From a virus: a stretch of DNA of 42,943 nucleotides. Every line of letters begins with the position of its first letter. Position 1 is the first letter of the stretch. The notes under the pieces were generated by a model. It was not told the DNA's origin. It worked only from the letters and a program-made list of their open reading frames with translations, and did no database searches. The stretch spans positions 1 through 42,943 of the IMG/VR virus record IMGVR_UViG_3300015164_000003; one strand, written 5' to 3'. The position numbers and the translations under genes are program-made. Of the stretch, positions 2,681-22,000 are shown in pieces.

Positions 2681-2944
2681 CTACGCCGCTTGGTCCGTGG
2701 ACGTTGGGGTGGACTTGGCGGGCGCGGTGAACAGCGCCTCGATGGGCTCACCGAGCGCCAAGCTGATGGCCTTCGCAGACGCCACAGATGCGCTGCGGCC
2801 GTTGCGCTTGCCCTTGCGCATCCGGGCCAGATAGCTGCCGTCGCCGTGGTTCACGCGCCGGGCCAGCTCGTTGCACGACATGCCCTGTGCGGTCATGGCC
2901 GCAGCGAGAGCGGGCGCGATGACGTGGAGTTTGGCGCGGGTCAT
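2681..2944 (-). CDS. XRE/Cro-type helix-turn-helix regulator
   Basis: The 87-residue product shows a five-helix XRE pattern: GMSCNELARRVNHGDGSYLARMRKGKR forms the helix-turn-helix around residues 21-47, followed by ASAKAISLALGEPIEALF. This is the usual end of the fold, where a helix scores the LGEP turn. Its gene is first in the leftward early operon and diverges from a plus-strand repressor candidate, the standard layout of a phage cro-like gene. A strong minus-strand promoter lies directly upstream. Confidence 0.75.
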   Translation of the reverse strand: MTRAKLHVIAPALAAAMTAQGMSCNELARRVNHGDGSYLARMRKGKRNGRSASVASAKAISLALGEPIEALFTAPAKSTPTSTDQAA

Positions 2945-2966
2945 GCGATGGCCTCTCGTCGGATAA

Positions 2967-3069
2967 CTAAGCGAATACTATGGACCGATCCAGGTGGAGT
3001 CAACACCTGAGCACGTATCCGCTTGGCAAACGCGACGAAAATCTGTCAACCCGCTTAGATGCGAGATAC
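2967..3069. promoter_or_regulatory. Repeated operator-like motifs of the lysogeny switch
   Basis: The word TATYCGCTTRG recurs: GTATTCGCTTAG on the minus strand (2967-2978), GTATCCGCTTGG on the plus strand (3015-3026), ACCCGCTTAG (3049-3058), and a partial inverted copy GCGAGATAC (3061-3069). One site sits on the leftward -10 box. A weak rightward promoter (TGTCAA, 17 bases, TACGCT) overlaps the last two. Spacing and position between divergent regulators suggest operators; which protein binds is unknown. Confidence 0.5.
2975..3003 (-). promoter_or_regulatory. Leftward early promoter
   Basis: Reading the minus strand, TTGACT and TAGTAT are separated by exactly 17 bases, a near-consensus vegetative promoter. 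It lies about 30 bases upstream of the Cro-like start. The -10 box overlaps one of the repeated operator-like motifs, so repressor binding there would block it. Confidence 0.75.
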
Positions 3070-3119
3070 GCTCGGACCAGTCCCCGCCGCGCCCGCGAGC
3101 CAAGACGGAGAGCCCACCC

Positions 3120-3527
3120 ATGAAGCCCGAACGCACGTTCACCCCCCTCTCCAAACTCATCCGCGACGCCATGGACGAGCACGGATGGCTTGTCAAAGAC
3201 TGCGTCGCCCCACCCAACGGACGCTGCGAAGGCGGCCCCACCTCCGCCACCCTGAGCTGGTACCGGCAGCCCGAGCAGTGGATGGGCGTCACCCCCCGCG
3301 AGAAGACAATCCGCGAGATAGCCACCGCCATCCGCGTCCCCGTCGACGTGGTCCGCACGGCCGCCATCGCCTCGCTGCGCAGCAACATGGACGCGCCTTC
3401 CGAGCCTGCTCCGAAGCGGACGCCGTCGCTGCCCCTCGACGGGCTGACGCCGGAGGATCAGCGGATGCTGCGCGACATGGCCCAGCGACTGCGATCAGCC
3501 CGCAAGCCACAGACCGCCACGCAGTAG
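3120..3527 (+). CDS. Putative immunity repressor
   Basis: A 135-residue basic protein begins MKPERTFTPLSKLIRDAM. Helices around EHGWLVKDCVAPPNG, EKTIREIATAIRVPVDVVRTAA resemble a helix-turn-helix domain with an inserted loop. A C-terminal helix (EDQRMLRDMAQRLRS) could dimerise. It is transcribed away from the Cro-like gene and immediately precedes the recombinase, the normal place for a repressor. I chose the ATG at the end of a purine-rich GACGGAGA ribosome site. Without a structure match, repressor is an inference from position and helix pattern. Confidence 0.55.
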   Translation: MKPERTFTPLSKLIRDAMDEHGWLVKDCVAPPNGRCEGGPTSATLSWYRQPEQWMGVTPREKTIREIATAIRVPVDVVRTAAIASLRSNMDAPSEPAPKRTPSLPLDGLTPEDQRMLRDMAQRLRSARKPQTATQ

Positions 3528-3539
3528 CCCGCCGTGAGC

Positions 3540-3620
3540 GTGCGACCACGCAGCGTGTGCAACCGGTGACCGTCACCCTGCGTGACAACACAACGTGTGC
3601 ACGAATCTCCTGGAACATGA
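3540..3620. other. Candidate recombination (attP or res) site
   Basis: The 127-base gap before the recombinase gene holds a perfect palindrome GGTGACCGTCACC (3565-3577). It is flanked by direct copies of CGTGTGCA (in GCAGCGTGTGCAAC and AACGTGTGCACG). Serine recombinase sites are short imperfect palindromes and typically adjoin the recombinase gene, so this is the best candidate here. No att core can be proven without the host junctions. Confidence 0.35.
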
Positions 3621-3654
3621 ACAACGAGCCGACGAAACGGGGCGAAAGGGACTA

Positions 3655-4410
3655 ATGGATCTGGTCGCGTATTTGAGGGTCAGCACGGCGCATCAAGCCG
3701 AGAGTTACGGCCTCGACGCCCAGCGGGCCAACATCGTCGAGTGGTCCGAGGTAAACGGGCACCGGGTCGTCGGCTGGTACCAGGACCCCGGCATCAGCGG
3801 AACCGTTGAAATCATCGACCGTCCCGGGATGACCGACGCGCTCGCCGCCCTGCACCCGGCGCCAGCCAAGGAGGACGACCCTGCCCAATGTGGACTGGTC
3901 GTGTCCAACCTCGACCGGATCGCCCGCCTCCTCCATCTGCAGGAGTCGGTGCTCGCGGTGGCGTGGAAGGCGGGAGGCTCCGTCTTCACCGTCGCCCAGG
4001 GCGAAGTGCTGGCCGACGACCCAGACGACGTGTACCGGACCTTCATCCGGCAGGTCATGGGCGGCATCTCCCAACTCGAACGAGGGCTGATCGCCAAGCG
4101 CATGCGAGACGGGCGAAAGGCGAAGGCGGCAGCCGGCGGGAAGTTCACTGGTCGCTACCCGTTCGGTCAGGCCGGCGAGGGAAAGCCCGGCCAGCGCGTC
4201 ACTGTCGTAGTCAAAGGCGAGGCTGCTATCGCCTACCGGCTTATCGAGCTGCGCGACGCAGGCTTGTCGTATCGGCAGATCGGCGCGGTCCTTGACGCAG
4301 AGGGATTGTCGCCTCGCATCGGCGATTCGTGGTGCGCGACATCGGTGCGGAACGTGGCGCTCAGATCAATCGAGGCACTCGGGCCTCCCGTCGATTTCGA
4401 GTCGGCGTGA
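3655..4410 (+). CDS. Serine recombinase, short form
   Basis: 251 residues. It begins MDLVAYLRVST, with the nucleophile at Ser10 and Arg8 beside it. GISGTVEIIDRPGM and NLDRIAR are further catalytic-domain landmarks. The long E helix runs through ~residues 127-150 (VYRTFIRQVMGGISQLERGLIAKRM). A recombinase-type DNA-binding part follows, with a helix-turn-helix around LSYRQIGAVLDAEG. The protein ends at about 250 residues, so the zinc ribbon and coiled-coil of 450-600-residue large serine integrases are missing. It could integrate or excise the prophage, or resolve plasmid multimers. Placement after the repressor favours integrase; the short length and plasmid genes favour resolvase. The start follows GAAAGGG. 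Confidence 0.9.
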   Translation: MDLVAYLRVSTAHQAESYGLDAQRANIVEWSEVNGHRVVGWYQDPGISGTVEIIDRPGMTDALAALHPAPAKEDDPAQCGLVVSNLDRIARLLHLQESVLAVAWKAGGSVFTVAQGEVLADDPDDVYRTFIRQVMGGISQLERGLIAKRMRDGRKAKAAAGGKFTGRYPFGQAGEGKPGQRVTVVVKGEAAIAYRLIELRDAGLSYRQIGAVLDAEGLSPRIGDSWCATSVRNVALRSIEALGPPVDFESA

Positions 4411-5618: not shown

Positions 5619-5848
5619 GCGGCGACCGCCTTGCGAGTGCATCGGATCGCGCCGACGGTGTAGGCGTCGTGGGTCTCGGGGCGCAGCATCCACTCCGGGA
5701 GGAACTGGCCGGAGTACTTGGCGTTGTAGCCCTTGGCGTGGCGAACCATGATGCGGACGGCCTCGACGCCTGCGGCCTGCTTCGTGTCAGCGGTGACGCG
5801 GACGCGAAAGTCGCTGGTGGTGGTGACGGTGACGAGGTAGGTGTTCAT
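5615..5848 (-). CDS. Small hypothetical protein, 77 residues
   Basis: Begins MNTYLVTVTTTSDFRVRVTAD, a beta-rich start, with a helix around TKQAAGVEAVRIMVRHAKG. GGGAG precedes the ATG at a good distance. It is the first gene after a clear promoter and opposite the ribbon-helix-helix gene. Similar short proteins of the form MNTYxVTVxxxxxxRVxADTxxxA occur on actinobacterial plasmids, in my recollection; the function is unknown. Confidence 0.65.
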   Translation of the reverse strand: MNTYLVTVTTTSDFRVRVTADTKQAAGVEAVRIMVRHAKGYNAKYSGQFLPEWMLRPETHDAYTVGAIRCTRKAVAA

Positions 5849-5884
5849 TTCGGTCTCCCTGGTGTGTGCTTCCCTGTGAGACTT

Positions 5885-5913
5885 ACTGTAGGCGCATAAG
5901 TCACGGGGCGCAA
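5885..5913 (-). promoter_or_regulatory. Leftward promoter of the accessory operon
   Basis: On the minus strand TTGCGC and TACAGT are 17 bases apart, about 37 bases upstream of the 77-residue gene. Its -35 box lies next to the rightward -35 box of the divergent gene, so one bound regulator could control both. Confidence 0.6.
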
Positions 5914-5919
5914 GGCTTC

Positions 5920-5947
5920 TTGCCAAAGTTTCTGTAGTCGGTAAAGT
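5920..5947 (+). promoter_or_regulatory. Promoter giving a probable leaderless transcript
   Basis: TTGCCA and TAAAGT are separated by 16 bases, and only six bases lie between the -10 box and the ATG. Transcription would therefore start at or next to the A of ATG. Leaderless mRNAs are common in Actinobacteria. No ribosome site precedes the gene, in agreement. Confidence 0.6.
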
Positions 5948-5953
5948 GGCTGC

Positions 5954-6127
5954 ATGAGTCCCCGCACCGGTCGCCCGAAGTCCGACAACCCACACGTCAA
6001 GGTTGTGAGCGTGCGGCTCACGCAGGCCGAGTACGACGCCTGCCTTGATGCTGCCACGCGAAAGGAAGCGGGCATCGGCCCGTGGATGAGGGAGCGGCTC
6101 GTGGCAGCGGCGCGACGGTCCAAGTAG
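5954..6127 (+). CDS. Ribbon-helix-helix DNA-binding protein
   Basis: The 57-residue product contains VVSVRLTQAEYDACLDAATR, a typical beta strand plus first helix of the MetJ/Arc fold. The helix GIGPWMRERLVAAARR completes it. Such proteins act as dimers, often as plasmid copy-control, partition or relaxosome-type (MobC-like) proteins. It lies alone on the plus strand between two leftward transfer operons and probably autoregulates the divergent promoters. Confidence 0.75.
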   Translation: MSPRTGRPKSDNPHVKVVSVRLTQAEYDACLDAATRKEAGIGPWMRERLVAAARRSK

Positions 6128-6150
6128 TACGCGCCACCCGTGCGGCGTCC

Positions 6151-7440
6151 TCACGTTGTCCTCAGGGTGGCGGGGGTGGCGCAGGCGGCGGCTTGCACGG
6201 TGACGGGCTGAGCGACGCGCGCTCCGGGGAGCATCGAGGCGACGAGCGAGGCGGCCAGGCCTTCGTGTTTGGCGTAGGCGTCGGGGAAGGCGCTGTGCTG
6301 GACGGCCTGCGCGGCCTGTGTGAGGGGCATGGTGCGCCAGTGCGGGACGTGCTGGAGGTGCCGGTAGAAAGTCGCGGCGGCGAAGGCGGGGGTGGTGACT
6401 TGCGCGACGGTCCCCCAGCCTTGCGACGGGCGTTGCTGGAACAGCCCTTGGGAGTCGCGGTCGCCGTAGTGCAGGTTCCGCAAGCCCGACTCTTGCATGG
6501 CGGTGGCGATGGCGATGGTCTGCGCCCGCGGGCCGAGAGACGCGCCGACCTGGGCGATGATCGTGGCGTTGCGGGTCTGGTCGGCGGTGAGCCGGGTGCT
6601 GTGCGTGACGCTCGCGTTCAGGGCGGTGCCGCTGCTGGTGGGGCAGGGCTTCCCGCACGCTGCGACCTGCTGTGCTGTTGCGGTCTGCTGCTGGGCTTGC
6701 GCGGCCCGGTAGGACGCTGCCGCTGCCTGCTCCGGGGCGTTCGGCTCCCCCTTGATGCCGCTCTCAATCTCCCCGAAGATCCGGCCAATATCACGCGCCC
6801 CGGACATGATCGTCGAGCGCACATCAGAAGGTGTGATCTTGGCGTGCGCCACCTGCGAGACGGCGTTCCCGGCGTCGTGCGCCATCCACGCGATCCCTCG
6901 GACCATCTTCGGTTCCTCCCCGGCCGGTGCCGGTTGCGCCACGGCGGTCGTTGCGGTGTCGCAGGAGACCAGGCGGCGCAGCCCGAACGGGTCGAGCGGA
7001 ACCGGCCCCAGCCAGTACGGGTCCAGCGCCCCACCGTCGCCGTAGACCTGGCCGTGATGCTTCGCGGCCCACCCGGCGATCTCCCGGACCGGCTTCGGGA
7101 CGAGATAAAACCAGGCGCCCCACATCATCGCGCCGACCAGCAGGAAGACCCACACGAGCGTTTCGAGGACCGCTCGCGGCTGGGTGACTGCGGTGACCGC
7201 TGCTCCGACGGGGGTGGGGTTGCTGGCGAAGGTGCCGAGCGCGGCGGTCTTCCCGCCGCGCCGCTTGGCCTTGCGGATCGTCTCCGTGCGGATCTTCTGC
7301 CCGAACTCGTCCCGGCCGCGCATGACATGGCGGGGCACGTCCGTCCCGACCGTCGCGTGCATCCGCTCGGTGATCTGCGCATGCCGCTCGACGGCACCTT
7401 GCGCGACACCACGGGCGAACGCGGCAACGTCAACGCTCAC
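6151..7440 (-). CDS. Transglycosylase-like membrane protein of transfer block
   Basis: 429 residues. Residues 1-85 are basic and cytoplasmic, and 91-113 form one membrane segment (VLETLVWVFLLVGAMMWGAW). An Ala/Gln-rich linker follows, then a lytic-transglycosylase-like domain from ~290. That domain has TAMQESGL with the likely catalytic Glu317, and DSQGLFQQRPSQGWG. It would cut peptidoglycan at the transfer site, as VirB1/TcpG-type proteins do in conjugation. In actinobacterial integrative and plasmid elements such domains accompany FtsK/TraB translocases. It is ATGA-coupled to the small membrane protein upstream. A phage lysin role is unlikely given the anchor and a separate endolysin gene. 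Confidence 0.75.
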   Translation of the reverse strand: MSVDVAAFARGVAQGAVERHAQITERMHATVGTDVPRHVMRGRDEFGQKIRTETIRKAKRRGGKTAALGTFASNPTPVGAAVTAVTQPRAVLETLVWVFLLVGAMMWGAWFYLVPKPVREIAGWAAKHHGQVYGDGGALDPYWLGPVPLDPFGLRRLVSCDTATTAVAQPAPAGEEPKMVRGIAWMAHDAGNAVSQVAHAKITPSDVRSTIMSGARDIGRIFGEIESGIKGEPNAPEQAAAASYRAAQAQQQTATAQQVAACGKPCPTSSGTALNASVTHSTRLTADQTRNATIIAQVGASLGPRAQTIAIATAMQESGLRNLHYGDRDSQGLFQQRPSQGWGTVAQVTTPAFAAATFYRHLQHVPHWRTMPLTQAAQAVQHSAFPDAYAKHEGLAASLVASMLPGARVAQPVTVQAAACATPATLRTT

Positions 7441-7697
7441 GGCAGCGCCTCAGGCGGCGTGGCCTTGCGGTCGTGCGCGCCACGAGCAGCCCAGCCAAGC
7501 AGCGGCGACACAACCAGGAGCAGCACCACGAAGCGCGCCAGCCAACCGGCCTGCAGCCACCACCAGGCACCGAACATCGCCACGGCGGCGGTGACACGCC
7601 ACAGACGGCGGGCCAGGACACGGGCCAGCGGCGCCGTCCACGCACCCAGCAGCCCACCCAAGAAGCCACCACCGAAGGCAGAACGGCCAGTGCTCAT
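7437..7697 (-). CDS. Small two-segment membrane protein
   Basis: The 86-residue product has a Gly-rich start (SAFGGGFLGGLLGAW) and hydrophobic stretches around residues 34-46 and 54-70 (AVAMFGAWWWLQAGW, FVVLLLVVSPLLGWA). It sits between translocase and transglycosylase genes with ATGA-type overlap on both sides, which suggests a subunit of the same membrane complex. Confidence 0.65.
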   Translation of the reverse strand: MSTGRSAFGGGFLGGLLGAWTAPLARVLARRLWRVTAAVAMFGAWWWLQAGWLARFVVLLLVVSPLLGWAARGAHDRKATPPEALP

Positions 7698-9574
7698 CAG
7701 AAGTCCTCCACGGCAAGGTCCGACGTCACCGACGTCACGTCGGGCTGTGGGGGTGTCTGAGCGTGGGAGAGGCGGTCTCTGATGTCGGTGACCTCCGTTT
7801 GAGGCGTGTCACCGACATCAGAGAGGGCATCCACCGACGTCACACGGCGCCAGACGCGGGTGCTGCCAGACCACCCGGACTCCACCCCATCGACCATCTG
7901 GAGCGCCTTCCCGAGGGTGCGGACGGACGTGGTTCGCAGCCACTCCGGCAGGTCGAGGAACAGGTCGCTCGCGGAACGCGGCCCGTCCTGCAGGACCTCG
8001 TGGACGGCCACCTCAAGCGGGCTGCGCGGCACGGGCACGGCAGCCTTGACCAGGTCGACGCCCGCGTCCTCGATCGGCGGGAGTGGCATGTCCTGGCGCA
8101 GCACGGTGGCGCGCTTGATGACCTCGGCGAAGGCGGCGTCGTCGAACATCGGGACCTGCGCGAGTGCTGCTGTGTGCCGGTCGGAGCCGAACAAGAACTG
8201 CCCCGGCCGCGACGGCAGCACCTCCGGTGTGCGGTCCAGGATGTACCGGACCTCGGCTTCCTCGTACGTCTGTCCGACGCATCGCTGCGCCAGGTTCGCC
8301 CGGAGGTCGGTCGGGATGAACTCCGCGGTGCCGCGCTGCGCCAGCACCCAAATGCTGATCCCCCGCGAGCGGACGGTGGCGGCGAGCTCGATGAGCAGCG
8401 AGTCCAGTCGCTTCGCCAGCGCCGGGTCATGCCGGTTCGCTGCGGACCGGATCCGGGCCCACTCGTCGATGATGACGAGGATGGGTGCGTGCTCGCGGCC
8501 TTGCGTGCCGCGGTGGGCGCTGACCCGCTCGAGCGTCAGGAAGACTTCCTCGACCTGCCGGGCGCTGGCGTGGGTCGCGCCACCCACGAACGACTGGCAC
8601 AGATGGCCCACGGGATAGTCCTCGAGGTCATGCTTACCGTCGATCACGAACAGGTAGACGGTCGGGTCGAGCAGTGCATGGGCCAGGCCGTAGGCGGCCA
8701 GCCTGGTCTTGCCAGCGCCGGTCTGGGCACAGAAGGCCGTGTGCGCTCCGACGGTTTGGAGCACCACGGGCCTGCCCATGCGGTCTGGCCCGATGGGCAC
8801 TCCGTCTGCCCACACGGTCTGTTCGGGCAGGACGGCGACGGTGGTGCTCTTGGCTTGCGGGTCCAGGACGGTGATCGTCAGGTCGCAGGCGTCGTGCTCG
8901 TCGTTGTGCTCGAGGTGCAGTCGCTGGATGGGCAGGCGCATCGCCGAGGCCAGGGTGTCGTGCTTGCTGACGGCCTGCGTCCACACGTTCCCCTGTGGGA
9001 GTCGGATGGTGACCTGCATGCCCACGTCGGGGATGCGGACGGGCTTCCCTCGATAGCCGATCTTGGGGAGTAGGACAACGCCGTCTGAATCCTTCCCCGG
9101 GCTGCTGCAAATCCTGGAGGCAACGAGGGCCTTGCCGATGTTGGCGTGTGCCCACCACGACGCTGTGGGGGTGCCCTTCGGTGGCCGGCCGAGATATTCG
9201 ATCGCTCCGAGGGCGAGCAGGGCCGCCAGCACGGGCCGTCCGAGGCCGATGAGGAGCAGCGGCACGAGCACGCCGAGGGCGGTGAGGGCCGTCAGGTGCC
9301 GAGGTGAGCCGTGCAAGCCGACGCGCACGTCCAGCCCTGCTCGGGTGCGCCACACCCTGCGACCACCGACGAGCGCGACGAGCAGGGCGAGTCCGGGTGC
9401 GGTGCGGGCGGCGAGCAACGGCCCGAACGCCAGCAGCCCGAAGGCGAGGATGCCGAGGTGCGCTGCCTGCTTGGGGAGTCCTGCGCGGCGGGTTGCTTCG
9501 GCCCAGCGCTTCCAGGCGTAGCGCAGGATGAGGCTCGGGACCATGGGCGGCGTGCGCTCGATGGTGGTGCTCAT
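7697..9574 (-). CDS. FtsK/TraB-type DNA translocase
   Basis: 625 residues. Two hydrophobic regions (about 39-72 and 94-128) anchor it. A region of ~150 residues precedes the motor. The Walker A is AQTGAGKTR (283-291) and the Walker B ILVIIDEWA (365-373), in FtsK/HerA arrangement. Near the C-terminus a winged-helix-like part (residues ~525-585, ASDLFLDLPEWLRTTSVRTLGKAL) resembles the DNA-recognition domain of TraB proteins. Mycelial actinobacterial plasmids use one such protein to pump double-stranded DNA between cells. The ATG is placed just after the previous stop rather than far upstream. The last ~50 codons contain the repeated motif and perfect inverted repeat listed separately. It is the central transfer gene of this window. 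Confidence 0.88.
   Translation of the reverse strand: MSTTIERTPPMVPSLILRYAWKRWAEATRRAGLPKQAAHLGILAFGLLAFGPLLAARTAPGLALLVALVGGRRVWRTRAGLDVRVGLHGSPRHLTALTALGVLVPLLLIGLGRPVLAALLALGAIEYLGRPPKGTPTASWWAHANIGKALVASRICSSPGKDSDGVVLLPKIGYRGKPVRIPDVGMQVTIRLPQGNVWTQAVSKHDTLASAMRLPIQRLHLEHNDEHDACDLTITVLDPQAKSTTVAVLPEQTVWADGVPIGPDRMGRPVVLQTVGAHTAFCAQTGAGKTRLAAYGLAHALLDPTVYLFVIDGKHDLEDYPVGHLCQSFVGGATHASARQVEEVFLTLERVSAHRGTQGREHAPILVIIDEWARIRSAANRHDPALAKRLDSLLIELAATVRSRGISIWVLAQRGTAEFIPTDLRANLAQRCVGQTYEEAEVRYILDRTPEVLPSRPGQFLFGSDRHTAALAQVPMFDDAAFAEVIKRATVLRQDMPLPPIEDAGVDLVKAAVPVPRSPLEVAVHEVLQDGPRSASDLFLDLPEWLRTTSVRTLGKALQMVDGVESGWSGSTRVWRRVTSVDALSDVGDTPQTEVTDIRDRLSHAQTPPQPDVTSVTSDLAVEDF
7720..7843. repeat. 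Repeat cluster with perfect 17-bp inverted repeat, candidate cis-acting transfer locus
   Basis: CCGACRTCA occurs five times in 124 bases: 7720, 7729, 7812 and 7834 on the plus strand, and inverted at 7780-7788. Two of the copies are centred in a perfect inverted repeat, arms 7776-7792 and 7808-7824 (TCTCTGATGTCGGTGAC and its complement) around 15 bases. Coding needs alone do not explain such symmetry. In Streptomyces plasmids the TraB winged helix binds short repeats (clt) close to its own gene, so these could be its recognition sites. Confidence 0.6.
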
Positions 9575-9864: not shown

Positions 9865-9948
9865 GCGGTGCTCCTTCGTTGTGAGGTGGTGCGCGGTGCG
9901 TCACGCATCGCCGCCAGGAGCATAAGCCTTCGGCAAGTGCTTTGCGGT

Positions 9949-9960: not shown

Positions 9961-10158
9961 GTGAACTACGAGCAGCGCGCCAAGACGGCTATGCGCAGGC
10001 TCGCGCGGCATGACGAGGACCTGGCGATGCGTGACGCTGCGATCTTCGGCATGTACGAGGTCGCCGGCATGAATCCGAGCGAGATCGGCCGGCGGCTGGA
10101 TCTGTCGCGGGGCACGGTGCGGTCGGCGATCTTGCGGCATCGGGCTTCGCGCCCGTAG
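9961..10158 (+). CDS. Helix-turn-helix regulator, 65 residues
   Basis: Residues 25-62 (RDAAIFGMYEVAGMNPSEIGRRLDLSRGTVRSAILRHR) form a sigma-region-4/homeodomain-like helix-turn-helix. The gene diverges from the translocase operon and has no ribosome site. It probably regulates the translocase operon, in the way KorA- or TraR-type repressors guard tra genes; this role is inferred from position. Confidence 0.7.
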   Translation: MNYEQRAKTAMRRLARHDEDLAMRDAAIFGMYEVAGMNPSEIGRRLDLSRGTVRSAILRHRASRP

Positions 10159-11531: not shown

Positions 11532-12112
11532 CACGCACCGCCGTGTTGAAAGTTATGGACGGGATGCTCTGTTCGGATGGCGTACTCCTCTGCGGCGATT
11601 GCCTGCTCGTCTGAAGCGAAGTGCTCGACCGTGGAGTACGCGACTTCCGGCCACCACAGCGCGCACTCAGCGTGCTCCCAGAATCGATGCACGCCTCGTA
11701 CCGTCTTGCCTACGTAGAGCAGACGATGACCTGGGTCGAAGAACCGGTAGACACACGAAGGCCGAGACGTGCACGGCGGCGCCGACTCAGACCTGACTGC
11801 AAGCTGATCTAGCAGATCGCGCTGGGCCCGTTCTTTCCGCTCCCCAGATGCGCCACGGCGCGACCTGGCGCTCTTGAACGCGAGGCTCAGGAAGTAGGCC
11901 TTCCGGGCGTGCTCGGCGCGTCGCGCCCGCTCGGCCGGCTCAAGGACGCCCTCAGGGTCGACCTCGCGGTCGAAACGATCGTCGAAACCTTTGCGAGCGA
12001 GCGCTCCGGCCGCTCGCCGTTCCTCCTCGCTGGCATTGGCCCACCGTGAGTTCGCCGCGATCCGGGCGCGCATCGACCGCTCGGAAGGCGTCAGCGGCAG
12101 CGGCTTGCTCAC
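11528..12112 (-). CDS. GIY-YIG family nuclease
   Basis: 194 residues. The C-terminal half has the fold's landmarks: VYRFF, LLYVGKT, then RGVHRFWEHA, and the distal Glu in AIAAEEYAIR, with a typical ending near HPVHNFQHGG. The N-terminal half is basic and helical (RSMRARIAANSRWANASEEERRAAGAL). It lies between parA and the last gene of the operon, an unusual place for a nuclease. Homing activity, incoming-DNA processing or plasmid competition are possible. A GTG overlaps the parA stop. The first tyrosine of the GIY motif is present as VYR rather than GIY. Confidence 0.75.
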   Translation of the reverse strand: MSKPLPLTPSERSMRARIAANSRWANASEEERRAAGALARKGFDDRFDREVDPEGVLEPAERARRAEHARKAYFLSLAFKSARSRRGASGERKERAQRDLLDQLAVRSESAPPCTSRPSCVYRFFDPGHRLLYVGKTVRGVHRFWEHAECALWWPEVAYSTVEHFASDEQAIAAEEYAIRTEHPVHNFQHGGAW

Positions 12113-12921
12113 CACGCACCCACGGGCAGGGTCTGGACCATCATCCGCTCCGTGAGGGCGGCCATGACCGTGCGGTAGTCCGCTGCGGCGTCGTGAGCAG
12201 GCTTGTAGGCGGTGGGGAGCAGACCAGTCTGAGGAAGCCGTTCCACGGCGGTACGGGACCGCACAGGCGGCAGCAACAGCGCTTGCAACCTGCTCGCCAT
12301 GCCGATCTGCCGGAAGGCGTCAGCCGCCGCGATGGTCTGCGGGGCTGGGACCGCACACGGCAACAGGCCGCGGAGCAGCGTCACTCCCCTAGCCGCCTCC
12401 TCCTCACGGATCAGCCCGACCTCGTACTTCAGCGCAAACACGTTCATCCCGGCGGGGACGAACGGCACGATCACATGGTCGGCTGCCTCGAGGACGCACA
12501 GCACGAGCAGGCTCAGGGTGCTCTTGGGCGCGTCGATGACGATCAGGTCGTACATGCTCCGCAGCGGTTCGAGCAGATCGGAGATGGCGTCCTCGCGCCT
12601 GCGTTTGCGGCCGGCGATGTGGTCCTCGGCGAGCATCATGCGGCTGCCGACCGGGAGCAGATCGAGATTCTCGGTGACGCGGCTGATGGCCTGCGCTGGG
12701 GTGATGCTCCCGACGATGGCATCGCAGATGCCGTAGAAGCCCTGGTCCCCTGCGGGCCGGTCGGGGCTGGCGAGCCAGTCAGTGAGGGATGCTTGCGCGT
12801 CGAGGTCGACGAGCAGGACCTTCTGCCCGAACGATGCCTGCTCGGCCAGAGCTGCCGCCGAAGTCGTTTTGCCAGCGCCGCCCTTGCCCACGATGGCGAG
12901 CACGTCGGCGCGGTCAGGCAT
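12109..12921 (-). CDS. parA: ParA-type partition ATPase
   Basis: 270 residues. The deviant Walker A KGGAGKTT is at residues 13-20 with the signature lysine. VLLVDLDAQAS (35-45) and DLIVIDAPKS supply the other nucleotide-binding segments. No N-terminal helix-turn-helix is present, so this is a short ParA (type Ib-like). It would segregate the element in its extrachromosomal form. It is preceded by an overlapping 80-residue gene and followed by the GIY-YIG nuclease. The last codons and intercistronic bases (GGTGCGTGGTGA) recur at the end of the next gene. Confidence 0.88.
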   Translation of the reverse strand: MPDRADVLAIVGKGGAGKTTSAAALAEQASFGQKVLLVDLDAQASLTDWLASPDRPAGDQGFYGICDAIVGSITPAQAISRVTENLDLLPVGSRMMLAEDHIAGRKRRREDAISDLLEPLRSMYDLIVIDAPKSTLSLLVLCVLEAADHVIVPFVPAGMNVFALKYEVGLIREEEAARGVTLLRGLLPCAVPAPQTIAAADAFRQIGMASRLQALLLPPVRSRTAVERLPQTGLLPTAYKPAHDAAADYRTVMAALTERMMVQTLPVGAW

Positions 12922-13176: not shown

Positions 13177-13245
13177 GCGCACGGTGTGCGCTGTCCTGCC
13201 AGGATGGATGGAGGTAAGTAAGTATGGAAGGAAGTAAGTAGGCAC
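13177..13245. promoter_or_regulatory. Candidate partition operator/centromere
   Basis: Upstream of the par operon lie two perfect inverted repeats, GCGCAC-ggt-GTGCGC (13177-13191) and TCCTG-c-CAGGA (13194-13204). They are followed by the direct repeats GGTAAGTAAGTA and GAAGTAAGTA. Clustered symmetric and iterated sites before parA are typical of par operators and centromeres. The AT-richer GTAAGTA repeats stand out from the GC-rich surroundings. Which element binds a partition protein is unknown. Confidence 0.5.
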
Positions 13246-13257
13246 ACTTCCCTTACT

Positions 13258-13757: not shown

Positions 13758-14051
13758 GTGGCGGTCCTCAGGACAGCGTGCGGGGATCGTGCGCGGACAT
13801 TTGGTCCCGGCCCCGGGTGTGCCGCCCCTGCCACTCAGGGGGCGTGTTGTGGCTCCGGGGCGGGGGAGCCAAGCGTTCATGGCGTGTTCCGTTTTGTGCC
13901 GTTTCGTGGTGCGTATCACAGGAGTATCACGCCTGCGTCTGGCGTGTCTGTGCGTGATCAACGCGTGTCATGTGCTCTGTCACAATCTGTGACTCAAACG
14001 GTTCTGGGGCTTGCTAATCGGCAACAATCTGTCACCTGGCAGGTTCGGCCC
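13758..14051. promoter_or_regulatory. Divergent regulatory region with paired operators
   Basis: No gene is seen. A perfect 15-bp palindrome GTCACA-atc-TGTGAC (13979-13993) is followed 31 bases later by a related half, ACAATCTGTCAC (14024-14035), just before the AlpA-like start. Further left GTATCAC is repeated at an 11-base interval (13913, 13924), i.e. on one helix face. A GC-rich hairpin (CCCCTG/CAGGGG) lies near 13830. The two motif pairs probably serve the two divergent genes. Confidence 0.5.
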
Positions 14052-14249
14052 GTGACACATCATCTGGTCGGCGTGACCGAGATCGCGGCCATGTTGGGCG
14101 TCGGCCGCGAGCGGGTCCGGCAACTCACCCTCCGTGAGGACTTCCCCGCTCCGACAGTGGTTCTGACCGGCCAGAGGGTGTGGGAACGGAAGGCGATCTT
14201 GGACTGGTGCCGTGCCACCGGCCGGACCGTCGTACGCAAACGCCCCTGA
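14052..14249 (+). CDS. AlpA/excisionase-like helix-turn-helix protein
   Basis: 65 residues. LVGVTEIAAMLGVGRERVRQLTLREDFPAP is the winged-helix opening of MerR/AlpA-type proteins, and VWERKAILDWCRATGR its wing and last helix. Such proteins act as excisionases or activators of integrase or plasmid genes. The operator pair next to its start suggests autoregulation. It ends at a bidirectional terminator facing the lysis operon. Confidence 0.75.
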   Translation: MTHHLVGVTEIAAMLGVGRERVRQLTLREDFPAPTVVLTGQRVWERKAILDWCRATGRTVVRKRP

Positions 14250-19066: not shown

Positions 19067-22000
19067 GAGAAGCCGCCGGTGGTCAACTGGAACTCCATCT
19101 TGCGCGTGAACACGTCAATGTCGACGTGCTCGGAGAAGGTGTTGTGGTTCGTCACCTGCAGCGCCCGACCGCCCCCGCTCAGCGCGGCCATCGAGTCGGC
19201 ATGGCTGAGGATGCGGCCCGGACGGTCTGGCATCCACAACTCACGGCCCCGCTCGCCAATCCACGACGGCTCATTCATCGCAGGCCGCCCGCCGTTGGCG
19301 TAGCCACGGTGGCGCACCAGCGGATCAATCGCGGCGATGCTGCCGTAGCGGTGCAGTGCGTAGTTCAGCCCGGCGAAAATGCTGCCCCTCGGGTCGAAGA
19401 TTCCGCGGGAACGGAAAGGCCCGGCGTAGGCCGCGAACGTCGACGGGATCGTCTGCATGAGGCCGCGGGATGGATGGCCGGCCCTGGCATTGGAGTCCGT
19501 CAGGTTGATGGCGTTGGGGTTGCCGCCGCTCTCAAAGTTGATGCGCCTGAGCACGCCCGCGACCAAGCTGAGGGGCTGCCCGAGCTGCTGCAGCGCAGCG
19601 ATGACAAGGCTGGTCCATCGGGCGGCGCCACCCGCACCGCCGCCGCCGATGATCCCGGCGCCCGCGCCCTTGGCCTGCGCGACGACCTGATGGAACAGAG
19701 CAACAGCCCCGGCGGTCATTCTCGCCACGTTCGGGGTGTGGGCCTCGACATTGAACGCGACCGCACCGCCACGGGCGAAGCCGCGAAGGGCACCCCGCCG
19801 CATGGCCTCGACAGCACCATGCCCCCCGGCGCCGCGAACCTCCTTGGCAGTCCACACATGCTCGTCGTTGGACAGCCACGCCGCGATGCTGTCCGAGGTC
19901 CCCGTGCCGGCACCCCAGACAGGGCCGCCAGTGGCCCACCGGTTGCGCCCAGGGAGGCCCTGCGCTCCTTTCATCACGTTGCCGGGAGCGGAGCTCAAGA
20001 CGCTGATGCGGACGGTCTCGTCCTTGAAAGCCAGCGACGCGACGACAGACTCATGGAACTTGTCGAAGTCCGCGGCAGCCTTCTTAAGCTTCCCACCGAG
20101 GTCGGGGAGCCACCCGAATGCCGCCGCAGCACCATCGACGATCGCACCCACAACGGCAAGGAAGACCTTGACGATCAGTGCGAAGACCGGCTTGATGACA
20201 TTATTCCAGACCAAGGACAGTGCCGTTCCCATGCCATCCCAGGCAGTTTTCCACACCGTCGCGGACTTTTTCGTTGCCGTCCAGAGTGGCTGGAAGAAAG
20301 CAGTGTTCATCAGCCCGAAGATTTTCTTGATGAGCAGCCACGCCACGCTCAGGACAGCCTGAACGCCAGTCCACGCCCCGCGCCAGTGCTTGATCAGTTC
20401 GCCGAGGGCGAAGCCGAGCGGACCGAAGAAGGCAGTCATCAGGAGCACGTAGTGCCTCTTGATGAAGCCCCACGCAGATGCAAGGACCACCTGGATGCCG
20501 GTCCACACGTCGCGCCAGTGCTTGAACAGCTCGAAGATCGCGTAGCCGATGAGGGCAATGGGGAGGGCAATGATGAAGATTGCTGTGATGATCTCAGCGG
20601 AGTATTTTTTGATGAAGGCGACGGCAGACCGGAAGGTACCGGAGATGAAGTCCCACACCGACTTCACGACGTTGCGGAAGCCCTCAAAATGCTTCCAGGC
20701 GTAGATGAGGCCACCGACCAGGGCGGCCAGGGCGAGGACGACCAGGCCGATCGGGTTGGCGTCCATCGCGACGTTGAGGAGCCACTGGCCCACAGCCGCG
20801 ACCTTGGCCGCTGCTGCTGTGGCGTAGTACCTGACGATCGTGAGGGCCAGTGCCCCGTTCACCAGCACCGTCGTGACCGCGAAGACGGCCGAGTGGACCG
20901 CGGCAATCGTCAGGCCGGCGATGTAAGCGGTCAGCGCCGCGACCAGAACCCCGCCGATCGCGCTCGCCAACGCCATCGTCACCGTCTTGTGCCGACCGAA
21001 AAAGCCAATCGTGGAAGTCACAACTGGGATCAGCTTCGTACCGATCGTGATAGCCGTCGCAGTGATGACGGCCTTCGCACGGTCCATCTGGACGTTAAAC
21101 AGCTTCTGGGTGCTCGCCCAGCCCTCAACTTCCTTGCCACCATGGTGCAGCGACTCGGCGGTCTTCTTCGTCATCTCGGAGACGTAGGCGGTGTTCTCGC
21201 CTGTGAGCATCAGGGCAGTGTTGAGGCCCGTCGATCCGCCGAGCATCTTCTTGAGTTCGCTGGCCATCGTCGAAGCCATCGGGCTGCCAGACTTCAGCGC
21301 TGCAGAGAACCCACCAGCCTTCTTCTCCAGGGCCGCGAACTGCTGCGCCATAACGGCCTGCGGCAGAGAGAGTGCATGTGCTTGTTTGGAATAGTCCTTG
21401 ACGGTGACAGTGCCATTCACCAGCTCATTGGCGAGTTTCCGGGTTGCCGGTGCCATGTGGCTGAGCATTATCGTCATGTCCGCACCGGCAGACTTTGACT
21501 TGTTGAACGTGTCGAGCATGATCGCGCCCGACGGACCCATCTTCTTCGCGATCGTGTCGACAAAATATTCGAGAGTGCCAGCCAGGCCGCGCTTACCGAG
21601 CTTCAGGGCAACATCGGTGGACTCGATGCCGTACCGCTGCATCTGCGCGATTGCGATCTTGCTCGGCGCCTGCAGGTTCCTGATCGTGTTGGCCAGCTCG
21701 AACGTGGCCTCTTTCGCGGTCGTGCCGTGTCGGGTCAGGCCGGCGATGGCCCCGCCGACCTGCGCGAAGTCCAGCCCAGCAGCCGAGGCGATAGGCAGCA
21801 CCGTCGAAAGGGAGCCGGCGAACTCCTCCATGGTGCTCTTGCTGCCACCGGCGGCCGTTTTGAGGGCGTTCATCACGCCGACGGACTGGGTGGCGCCCAG
21901 GTGGTAGGAGGCCATGACCGACGTCATCGCGTTCGTGACCGTCGACAGGTTCGCGTTCTCCTCAGCCGCGCCCTGCGCCGCGGCCTTGAGGATCTTCAGG

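Follow-up and report, generated by a model that had tools for sequence, protein, structure and literature searches.

What does a short DNA word, repeated in both orientations, do inside the last codons of a translocase gene carried by a virus? The question is raised by IMG/VR virus record IMGVR_UViG_3300015164_000003, whose 42,943 bases (GC about 62-70%) were analysed as a whole and are here called the window. An earlier note on this DNA had proposed that the repeats are a clt, the loading site of a TraB-type protein encoded by the very gene in which they lie. We asked whether the array is real, at which level it is maintained, and which of the possible functions fits it best.

A nine-base word maintained at the DNA level

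All five claimed copies of CCGACRTCA were recovered as exact matches within positions 7720-7842, four of them direct and one inverted, and a sixth copy with one mismatch was found in addition (Table 1). The extended form of the repeated word is CACCGACRTCA. Two of the exact copies lie in the arms of an inverted repeat (TCTCTGATGTCGGTGAC / GTCACCGACATCAGAGA), which proved to be perfect over 17 bp as claimed, with 15 bp between the arms. It is the longest inverted repeat in the window, the runner-up having 13 bp (gap up to 60). The array lies wholly within the final 49 codons of the translocase gene, which is on the minus strand and ends with the stop at 7699-7697, so its assignment to the last codons also held. 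A count across the window, which had been suggested as a check, returned only two further exact copies, at 21918 and 22313. If the 24-bp tandem array at the contig ends is left out, no 150-bp repeat cluster in the window is stronger than this one.

Table 1 Positions of the repeat array and of neighbouring genes in the window
Feature	Position	Strand	Remarks
Motif copy 1, CCGACGTCA	7720..7728	+	Exact
Motif copy 2, CCGACGTCA	7729..7737	+	Exact, in tandem with copy 1
Inverted copy, CCGACGTGA	7735..7743	-	One mismatch; overlaps copy 2
Inverted-repeat arm, 17 bp	7776..7792	-	Contains inverted motif copy 7780-7788 (CCGACATCA)
Inverted-repeat other arm, 17 bp	7808..7824	+	Contains motif copy 7812-7820 (CCGACATCA)
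Motif copy, CCGACGTCA	7834..7842	+	Exact
Serine recombinase gene	3595-4410		
Small protein	5954-6127		Ribbon-helix-helix-like by eye, without family match; flanks transfer operon
Peptidoglycan-hydrolase-like gene	6151..7440	-	Conserved residues about 263-426; phrog_10030, phrog_29272
One-span membrane protein, 86 aa	7437..7697	-	ATG overlaps translocase stop by one base (TGATG)
FtsK/TraB-like DNA translocase, 625 aa	7697..9574	-	phrog_1358 FtsK/SpoIIIE-like, TcpA chains, P-loop
One-span membrane protein, 95 aa	9577..9864	-	Directly upstream of translocase
Small HTH protein gene	9961-10158		Flanks transfer operon
ParA-type ATPase	12109..12921	-	AAA_31 1.9e-23; phrog_164 6.4e-29

When the final 57 codons were recoded synonymously according to the codon usage of the genome, at least four motif copies were never obtained (0 of 20,000 recodings). 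The 17-bp inverted repeat was likewise never reached (0 of 1,000, the best having 14 bp). When the motif was not presupposed and any family of 9-mers with one transition was allowed, none of 1,500 recodings contained five copies and the maximum was four; by the same measure, five was not attained in any of the other gene tails tested from the window. Translated from the coding strand, the word gives VTS at 7834, 7729, and 7720 and SDVGD at 7812, while the inverted copy at 7780 gives VTDI. Because it thus occupies two reading frames and both strands, it is the DNA word that repeats and not the peptide, bearing out the earlier view of the peptide repeat as a by-product. The iterated 9-bp word at the 3' end of this FtsK/TraB-like gene is maintained at the DNA level. 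A search of viral contigs for tandem CACCGACRTCA returned 18 unrelated stretches, some of low complexity.

The translocase and the genome that carries it

The translocase has a P-loop (CAQTGAGKT), a Walker B motif (ILVIIDEW), and, towards its N-terminus, two hydrophobic segments (residues 38 and 94). Its family matches are weak: phrog_1358 (FtsK/SpoIIIE-like) at 3e-16 and the TcpA chains 6o1z/6o1x at about 3e-5. These features are those of a membrane-anchored FtsK/SpoIIIE-like ATPase, as found in TraB/clt systems. Against NF041214, the curated TraB model, the translocase scored 18.9 bits where the cut-off is 800. It is TraB-like in anatomy but lies outside the curated TraB family. Its relatives are only about 22-35% identical; no close relative was found in the viral contig, genome contig, and phage collections, and distant alignment scans gave only 23-31% identity.

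A C-terminal winged helix had also been proposed. AF2 modelling of the C-terminal fragment (7697..8086, minus strand) predicted a helix-helix-helix-wing topology over about fragment residues 20-85, in a single-sequence model with a mean pLDDT of 60 (about 66-78 over fragment residues 21-80). Compared with winged-helix proteins, the model reached a best Z of 8-9. Its Foldseek matches were weak (best E 0.012, none with E <= 0.001), and no relevant family model matched the C-terminal part. The proposed winged helix is thus the topology of a low-confidence model. The repeat-coded peptide tail lies C-terminal to the predicted winged helix. A single-sequence fold of the full-length protein was uninformative (pLDDT 40).

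The right part of the window carries terminase (TerL), portal, major capsid, and tape-measure genes on the minus strand, and the left part carries a ParA gene, a serine recombinase gene, and a short minus-strand transfer-like operon. The peptidoglycan-hydrolase-like gene in this operon is of the type that adjoins transfer ATPases on actinobacterial plasmids (381 plasmid records). Neither spread genes (DUF2637/SpdB) nor a GntR regulator were found among the operon genes scanned. With virion genes (TerL, portal, tape measure, capsid), a plasmid partition gene, and a transfer-like operon on one molecule, the window is probably a phage-plasmid. The nearest matches of its capsid are in Streptomyces phage phiSASD1 (45% identity) and among the capsids that circular 88-93 kb plasmids of Streptomyces encode (43-44%). 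Among 26 viral records related by capsid or replication protein, several of them fragments, none had the translocase in the sequence available, which suggests that the transfer module is an accessory acquired by the lineage of the window.

Several other repeats were observed in the window. An identical 24-bp tandem repeat (CGGTGCCGCGGTCCCCGGCGGTGG) is present at both contig ends (1-201 and 42801-42943). The record therefore probably represents a molecule, circular or terminally redundant, that was opened within this array; circularity based on terminal repeats is not on record for the contig. A perfect 15-bp inverted repeat (9898-9912 / 10023-10037), with arms 110 bp apart, flanks the start of the HTH gene and sits just upstream of the transfer operon. 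Four near-copies of ATCTGTCAC at 13975-14060, immediately ahead of a helix-turn-helix coding region or at its beginning, look operator-like.

Possible functions of the array

One comparison that bears on function is with the Streptomyces plasmid pSVH1. There, GACCCGGA, which we take to be the recognition motif of TraB and which Vogelmann et al. in 2011 are said to have described as such, occurs in four direct and one inverted copies at 8158-8256, immediately after traB (5824-8142), and twice elsewhere. In pSVH1 and in the window alike, the 3' end of an FtsK-like gene is marked by about 100-125 bp in which an 8-9 bp word stands four times in direct and once in inverted orientation; most of each element's copies are in this cluster, two lie elsewhere, and spacings of 22 and 32 bp are common to both. 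The two differ in the word itself (GACCCGGA versus CCGACRTCA) and in the placement of the site, which is wholly behind the gene in pSVH1 and wholly inside it here. In addition, the translocases are 22% identical, and only the window has a 17-bp dyad and phage virion genes. The pSVH1 TraB protein recognises 8-bp motifs through a C-terminal winged helix (PMC4170104, PMC3583192). Published clt sites consist of direct and inverted repeats at or near tra genes, and that of the Streptomyces plasmid pWTY27, which combines both kinds, includes 16 bp of traA (PMC3583192). The pWTY27 site resembles the array in having short direct and inverted repeats at the end of a tra gene and in being partly coding, whereas only 16 bp of it lie inside traA, 159 bp are non-coding, and its motif is TGACACC (PMC3583192).

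The most likely reading, which we regard as probable, is that the 123 bp form a cis-acting, clt-like loading site for the translocase in whose gene they lie. It is the best supported of the readings, by comparison only. The window shares with TraB/clt systems an iterated motif of 7-9 bp at the end of the translocase gene, with pSVH1 as the positive control. The layout and position of the array, its gene neighbourhood, and the predicted type of C-terminal domain agree with the clt proposed in the earlier note, and pSVH1 provides a close match to a published clt; to that extent the proposal stands. Other observations fit it less well. The 17-bp dyad exceeds a motif of 9-13 bp and is not needed by the site model alone, the translocase scores far below the TraB cut-off and has only distant relatives, the winged helix comes from a single-sequence model, and a mismatch-tolerant enrichment at 3' ends was absent from a second set of loci (see below). 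Furthermore, the FtsK-like genes of phages Baka and pZL12 have no such array, which also implies that arrays of this kind belong to TraB-type transfer genes and not to phage FtsK genes generally.

If the array is a loading site, the predicted C-terminal winged helix would bind the CCGACRTCA word, and several array-bound subunits, aided by the inverted pair, could form a hexamer that closes on the double-stranded DNA. Anchored in the membrane, this ring would then pump the circular element into an adjacent cell, and the wall would be opened by the hydrolase, whose gene is the second one downstream of the translocase. The Streptomyces TraB plasmids looked at have a gap of about 160-270 bp behind the traB-type gene, and in most of them the site is in this gap, which is roughly 200 bp long. 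In the window, the translocase stop TGA and the next ATG share one base, leaving no intergenic space, and the site may lie inside the coding sequence because there is no room for it outside. Placed in the last codons, the site would dictate the peptide tail of the translocase. A wider proposal, which we put forward only tentatively, is that the window represents a 43-kb actinobacterial phage genome with a one-protein dsDNA conjugation module, whose transfer origin would lie wholly inside the translocase coding sequence and which could exit both by virion and by septal pumping.

The 17-bp dyad could instead form a hairpin in the translocase mRNA, controlling the membrane protein and hydrolase genes downstream through processing, stability, or coupled translation. 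Its predicted folding energy is -37 kcal/mol (z = -7.75, equalled by no shuffle), and the perfect 17-bp stem is longer than the repeated motif. However, the hairpin leaves unexplained the other three exact copies of the 9-mer, which lie outside it, and neither a terminator-like site nor an Rfam family match was found. We consider the hairpin unlikely as the explanation of the array, but it may be an added function besides the loading site.

A parS-like centromere for the ParA partition system encoded in the same genome has precedents, since the parS sites of extrachromosomal mycobacteriophages are arrays of an 8-bp direct repeat, some of them right behind another gene (PMC7157519). The parS of mycobacteriophage RedRock, an actinophage that likewise encodes ParA, resembles the array in being built from a repeated word, of 8 bp, but it adjoins parAB (PMC7157519), whereas the array is inside the translocase gene and 4.3 kb away from parA. 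Among the neighbours scanned, none was recognised as a ParB. A more natural candidate is a separate array at about 13201-13250, directly upstream of the parA operon and composed of GGTAAGTAAGTA / GGAAGTAAGTAG and an inverted copy of CTTAC, which makes a centromere at the translocase gene quite unlikely. The GGTAAGTAAGTA / GGAAGTAAGTAG repeats are purine-rich and form a candidate partition site in their own right.

The repeats could also be operators for a regulator of the transfer operon, such as the HTH protein or the small protein encoded on either side of it, both putative DNA-binding proteins, and short inverted and direct repeats are compatible with operators too. Yet the array occupies the far end of the longest gene with no sigma-70-like site nearby, and the region upstream of the operon contains no exact motif copy, so we hold this role to be distinctly improbable. 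Serine recombinases use short inverted-repeat half-sites, and the genome encodes such an enzyme; its gene, however, lies 3.3 kb from the array, which is inside another gene, and the unequal spacing and mixed orientation of the copies give no paired half-sites around one crossover point, making a recombination site very unlikely. A peptide-level repeat (VTS/VTD tail) or chance is hardly credible, as VTS does occur three times in the tail but the same word is read in another frame and on the opposite strand and never arose from synonymous recoding.

Repeated words at the ends of other TraB-type genes

The loading-site reading was compared with further actinobacterial loci. In Streptomyces althioticus (L023) and Streptomyces sp. 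D2-8 (L049), as in the window, the translocase is followed by a cell-wall hydrolase, here a transglycosylase, and an array begins in the last codons. This array, of direct and inverted CTCGCACA, the recurring 3'-end 8-mer in S. althioticus, straddles the translocase stop (L023 6950-7050, L049 4950-5050); between the two loci every copy is intact and substitutions are confined to the spacers, which makes these the most informative of the relatives. Unlike that of the window, it is mostly non-coding and uses a different word, the translocase is about 25% identical, and no phage genes were present in the stretches seen. Another locus, found via the hydrolase (L019), was rejected as a relative, having only one domain of a 2008-aa protein in common.

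Virion genes, a partition gene, and a transfer-type translocase also occur together on one genome, circular as that of the window may be, in the Streptomyces plasmid-phage pZL12 and related phage-plasmids (NBC_01483, S. europaeiscabiei), but these are about 90 kb in size, and the 3' end of the pZL12 translocase gene lacks a repeat array. The translocase ends of Baka and NBC_01483 also showed no clear array, and that of S. europaeiscabiei only a GC-rich heptamer. Two circular Streptomyces plasmids of 88-93 kb (L041 23139-29199, L043 8310-15770) carry virion genes, DUF2637, and a transfer-type ATPase, like the plasmid-phage pZL12.

Gene ends were surveyed in two sets, loci around distant translocase relatives on Streptomyces plasmids and 20 loci from actinomycete genomes; within each set not all loci are independent, some plasmids being related. 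At least three copies of an exact 8-mer were present at 23 of 33 actinobacterial translocase ends and at 47 of 135 ends of other, neighbouring genes (pooled p = 3e-5; first set p = 6e-4, second set p = 1.5e-4). When one mismatch was allowed, the 3'-end enrichment was not replicated in the second set (p = 0.45). Since the exact measure replicates and the tolerant one does not, the rule that a gene carries its own 8-mer at the 3' end applies to many TraB-type genes but not to all. Three plasmids have four to five copies of CGTCAGTA at the translocase 3' end, with one copy at the stop in two of them, and two plasmids have four copies of CCTGGACG.

If the loading-site reading is true, transfer of the clt/TraB type extends to a small phage-plasmid, and a loading site can be absorbed into coding sequence. 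The suggested rule is that the loading site of an uncharacterised TraB-type protein would be the repeated 7-9 bp word that ends its own gene. The element pSAM2, although well studied, is without a described clt motif (PMC9513070), and the rule would make this question directly testable. Arrays right after the stop of actinomycete TraB-type genes, with four copies of GCCTCTAGA or six of CGCTACAC, are candidate loading sites (L062 around 2907-2960, L063 around 2934-3030, L067 around 3117-3280).
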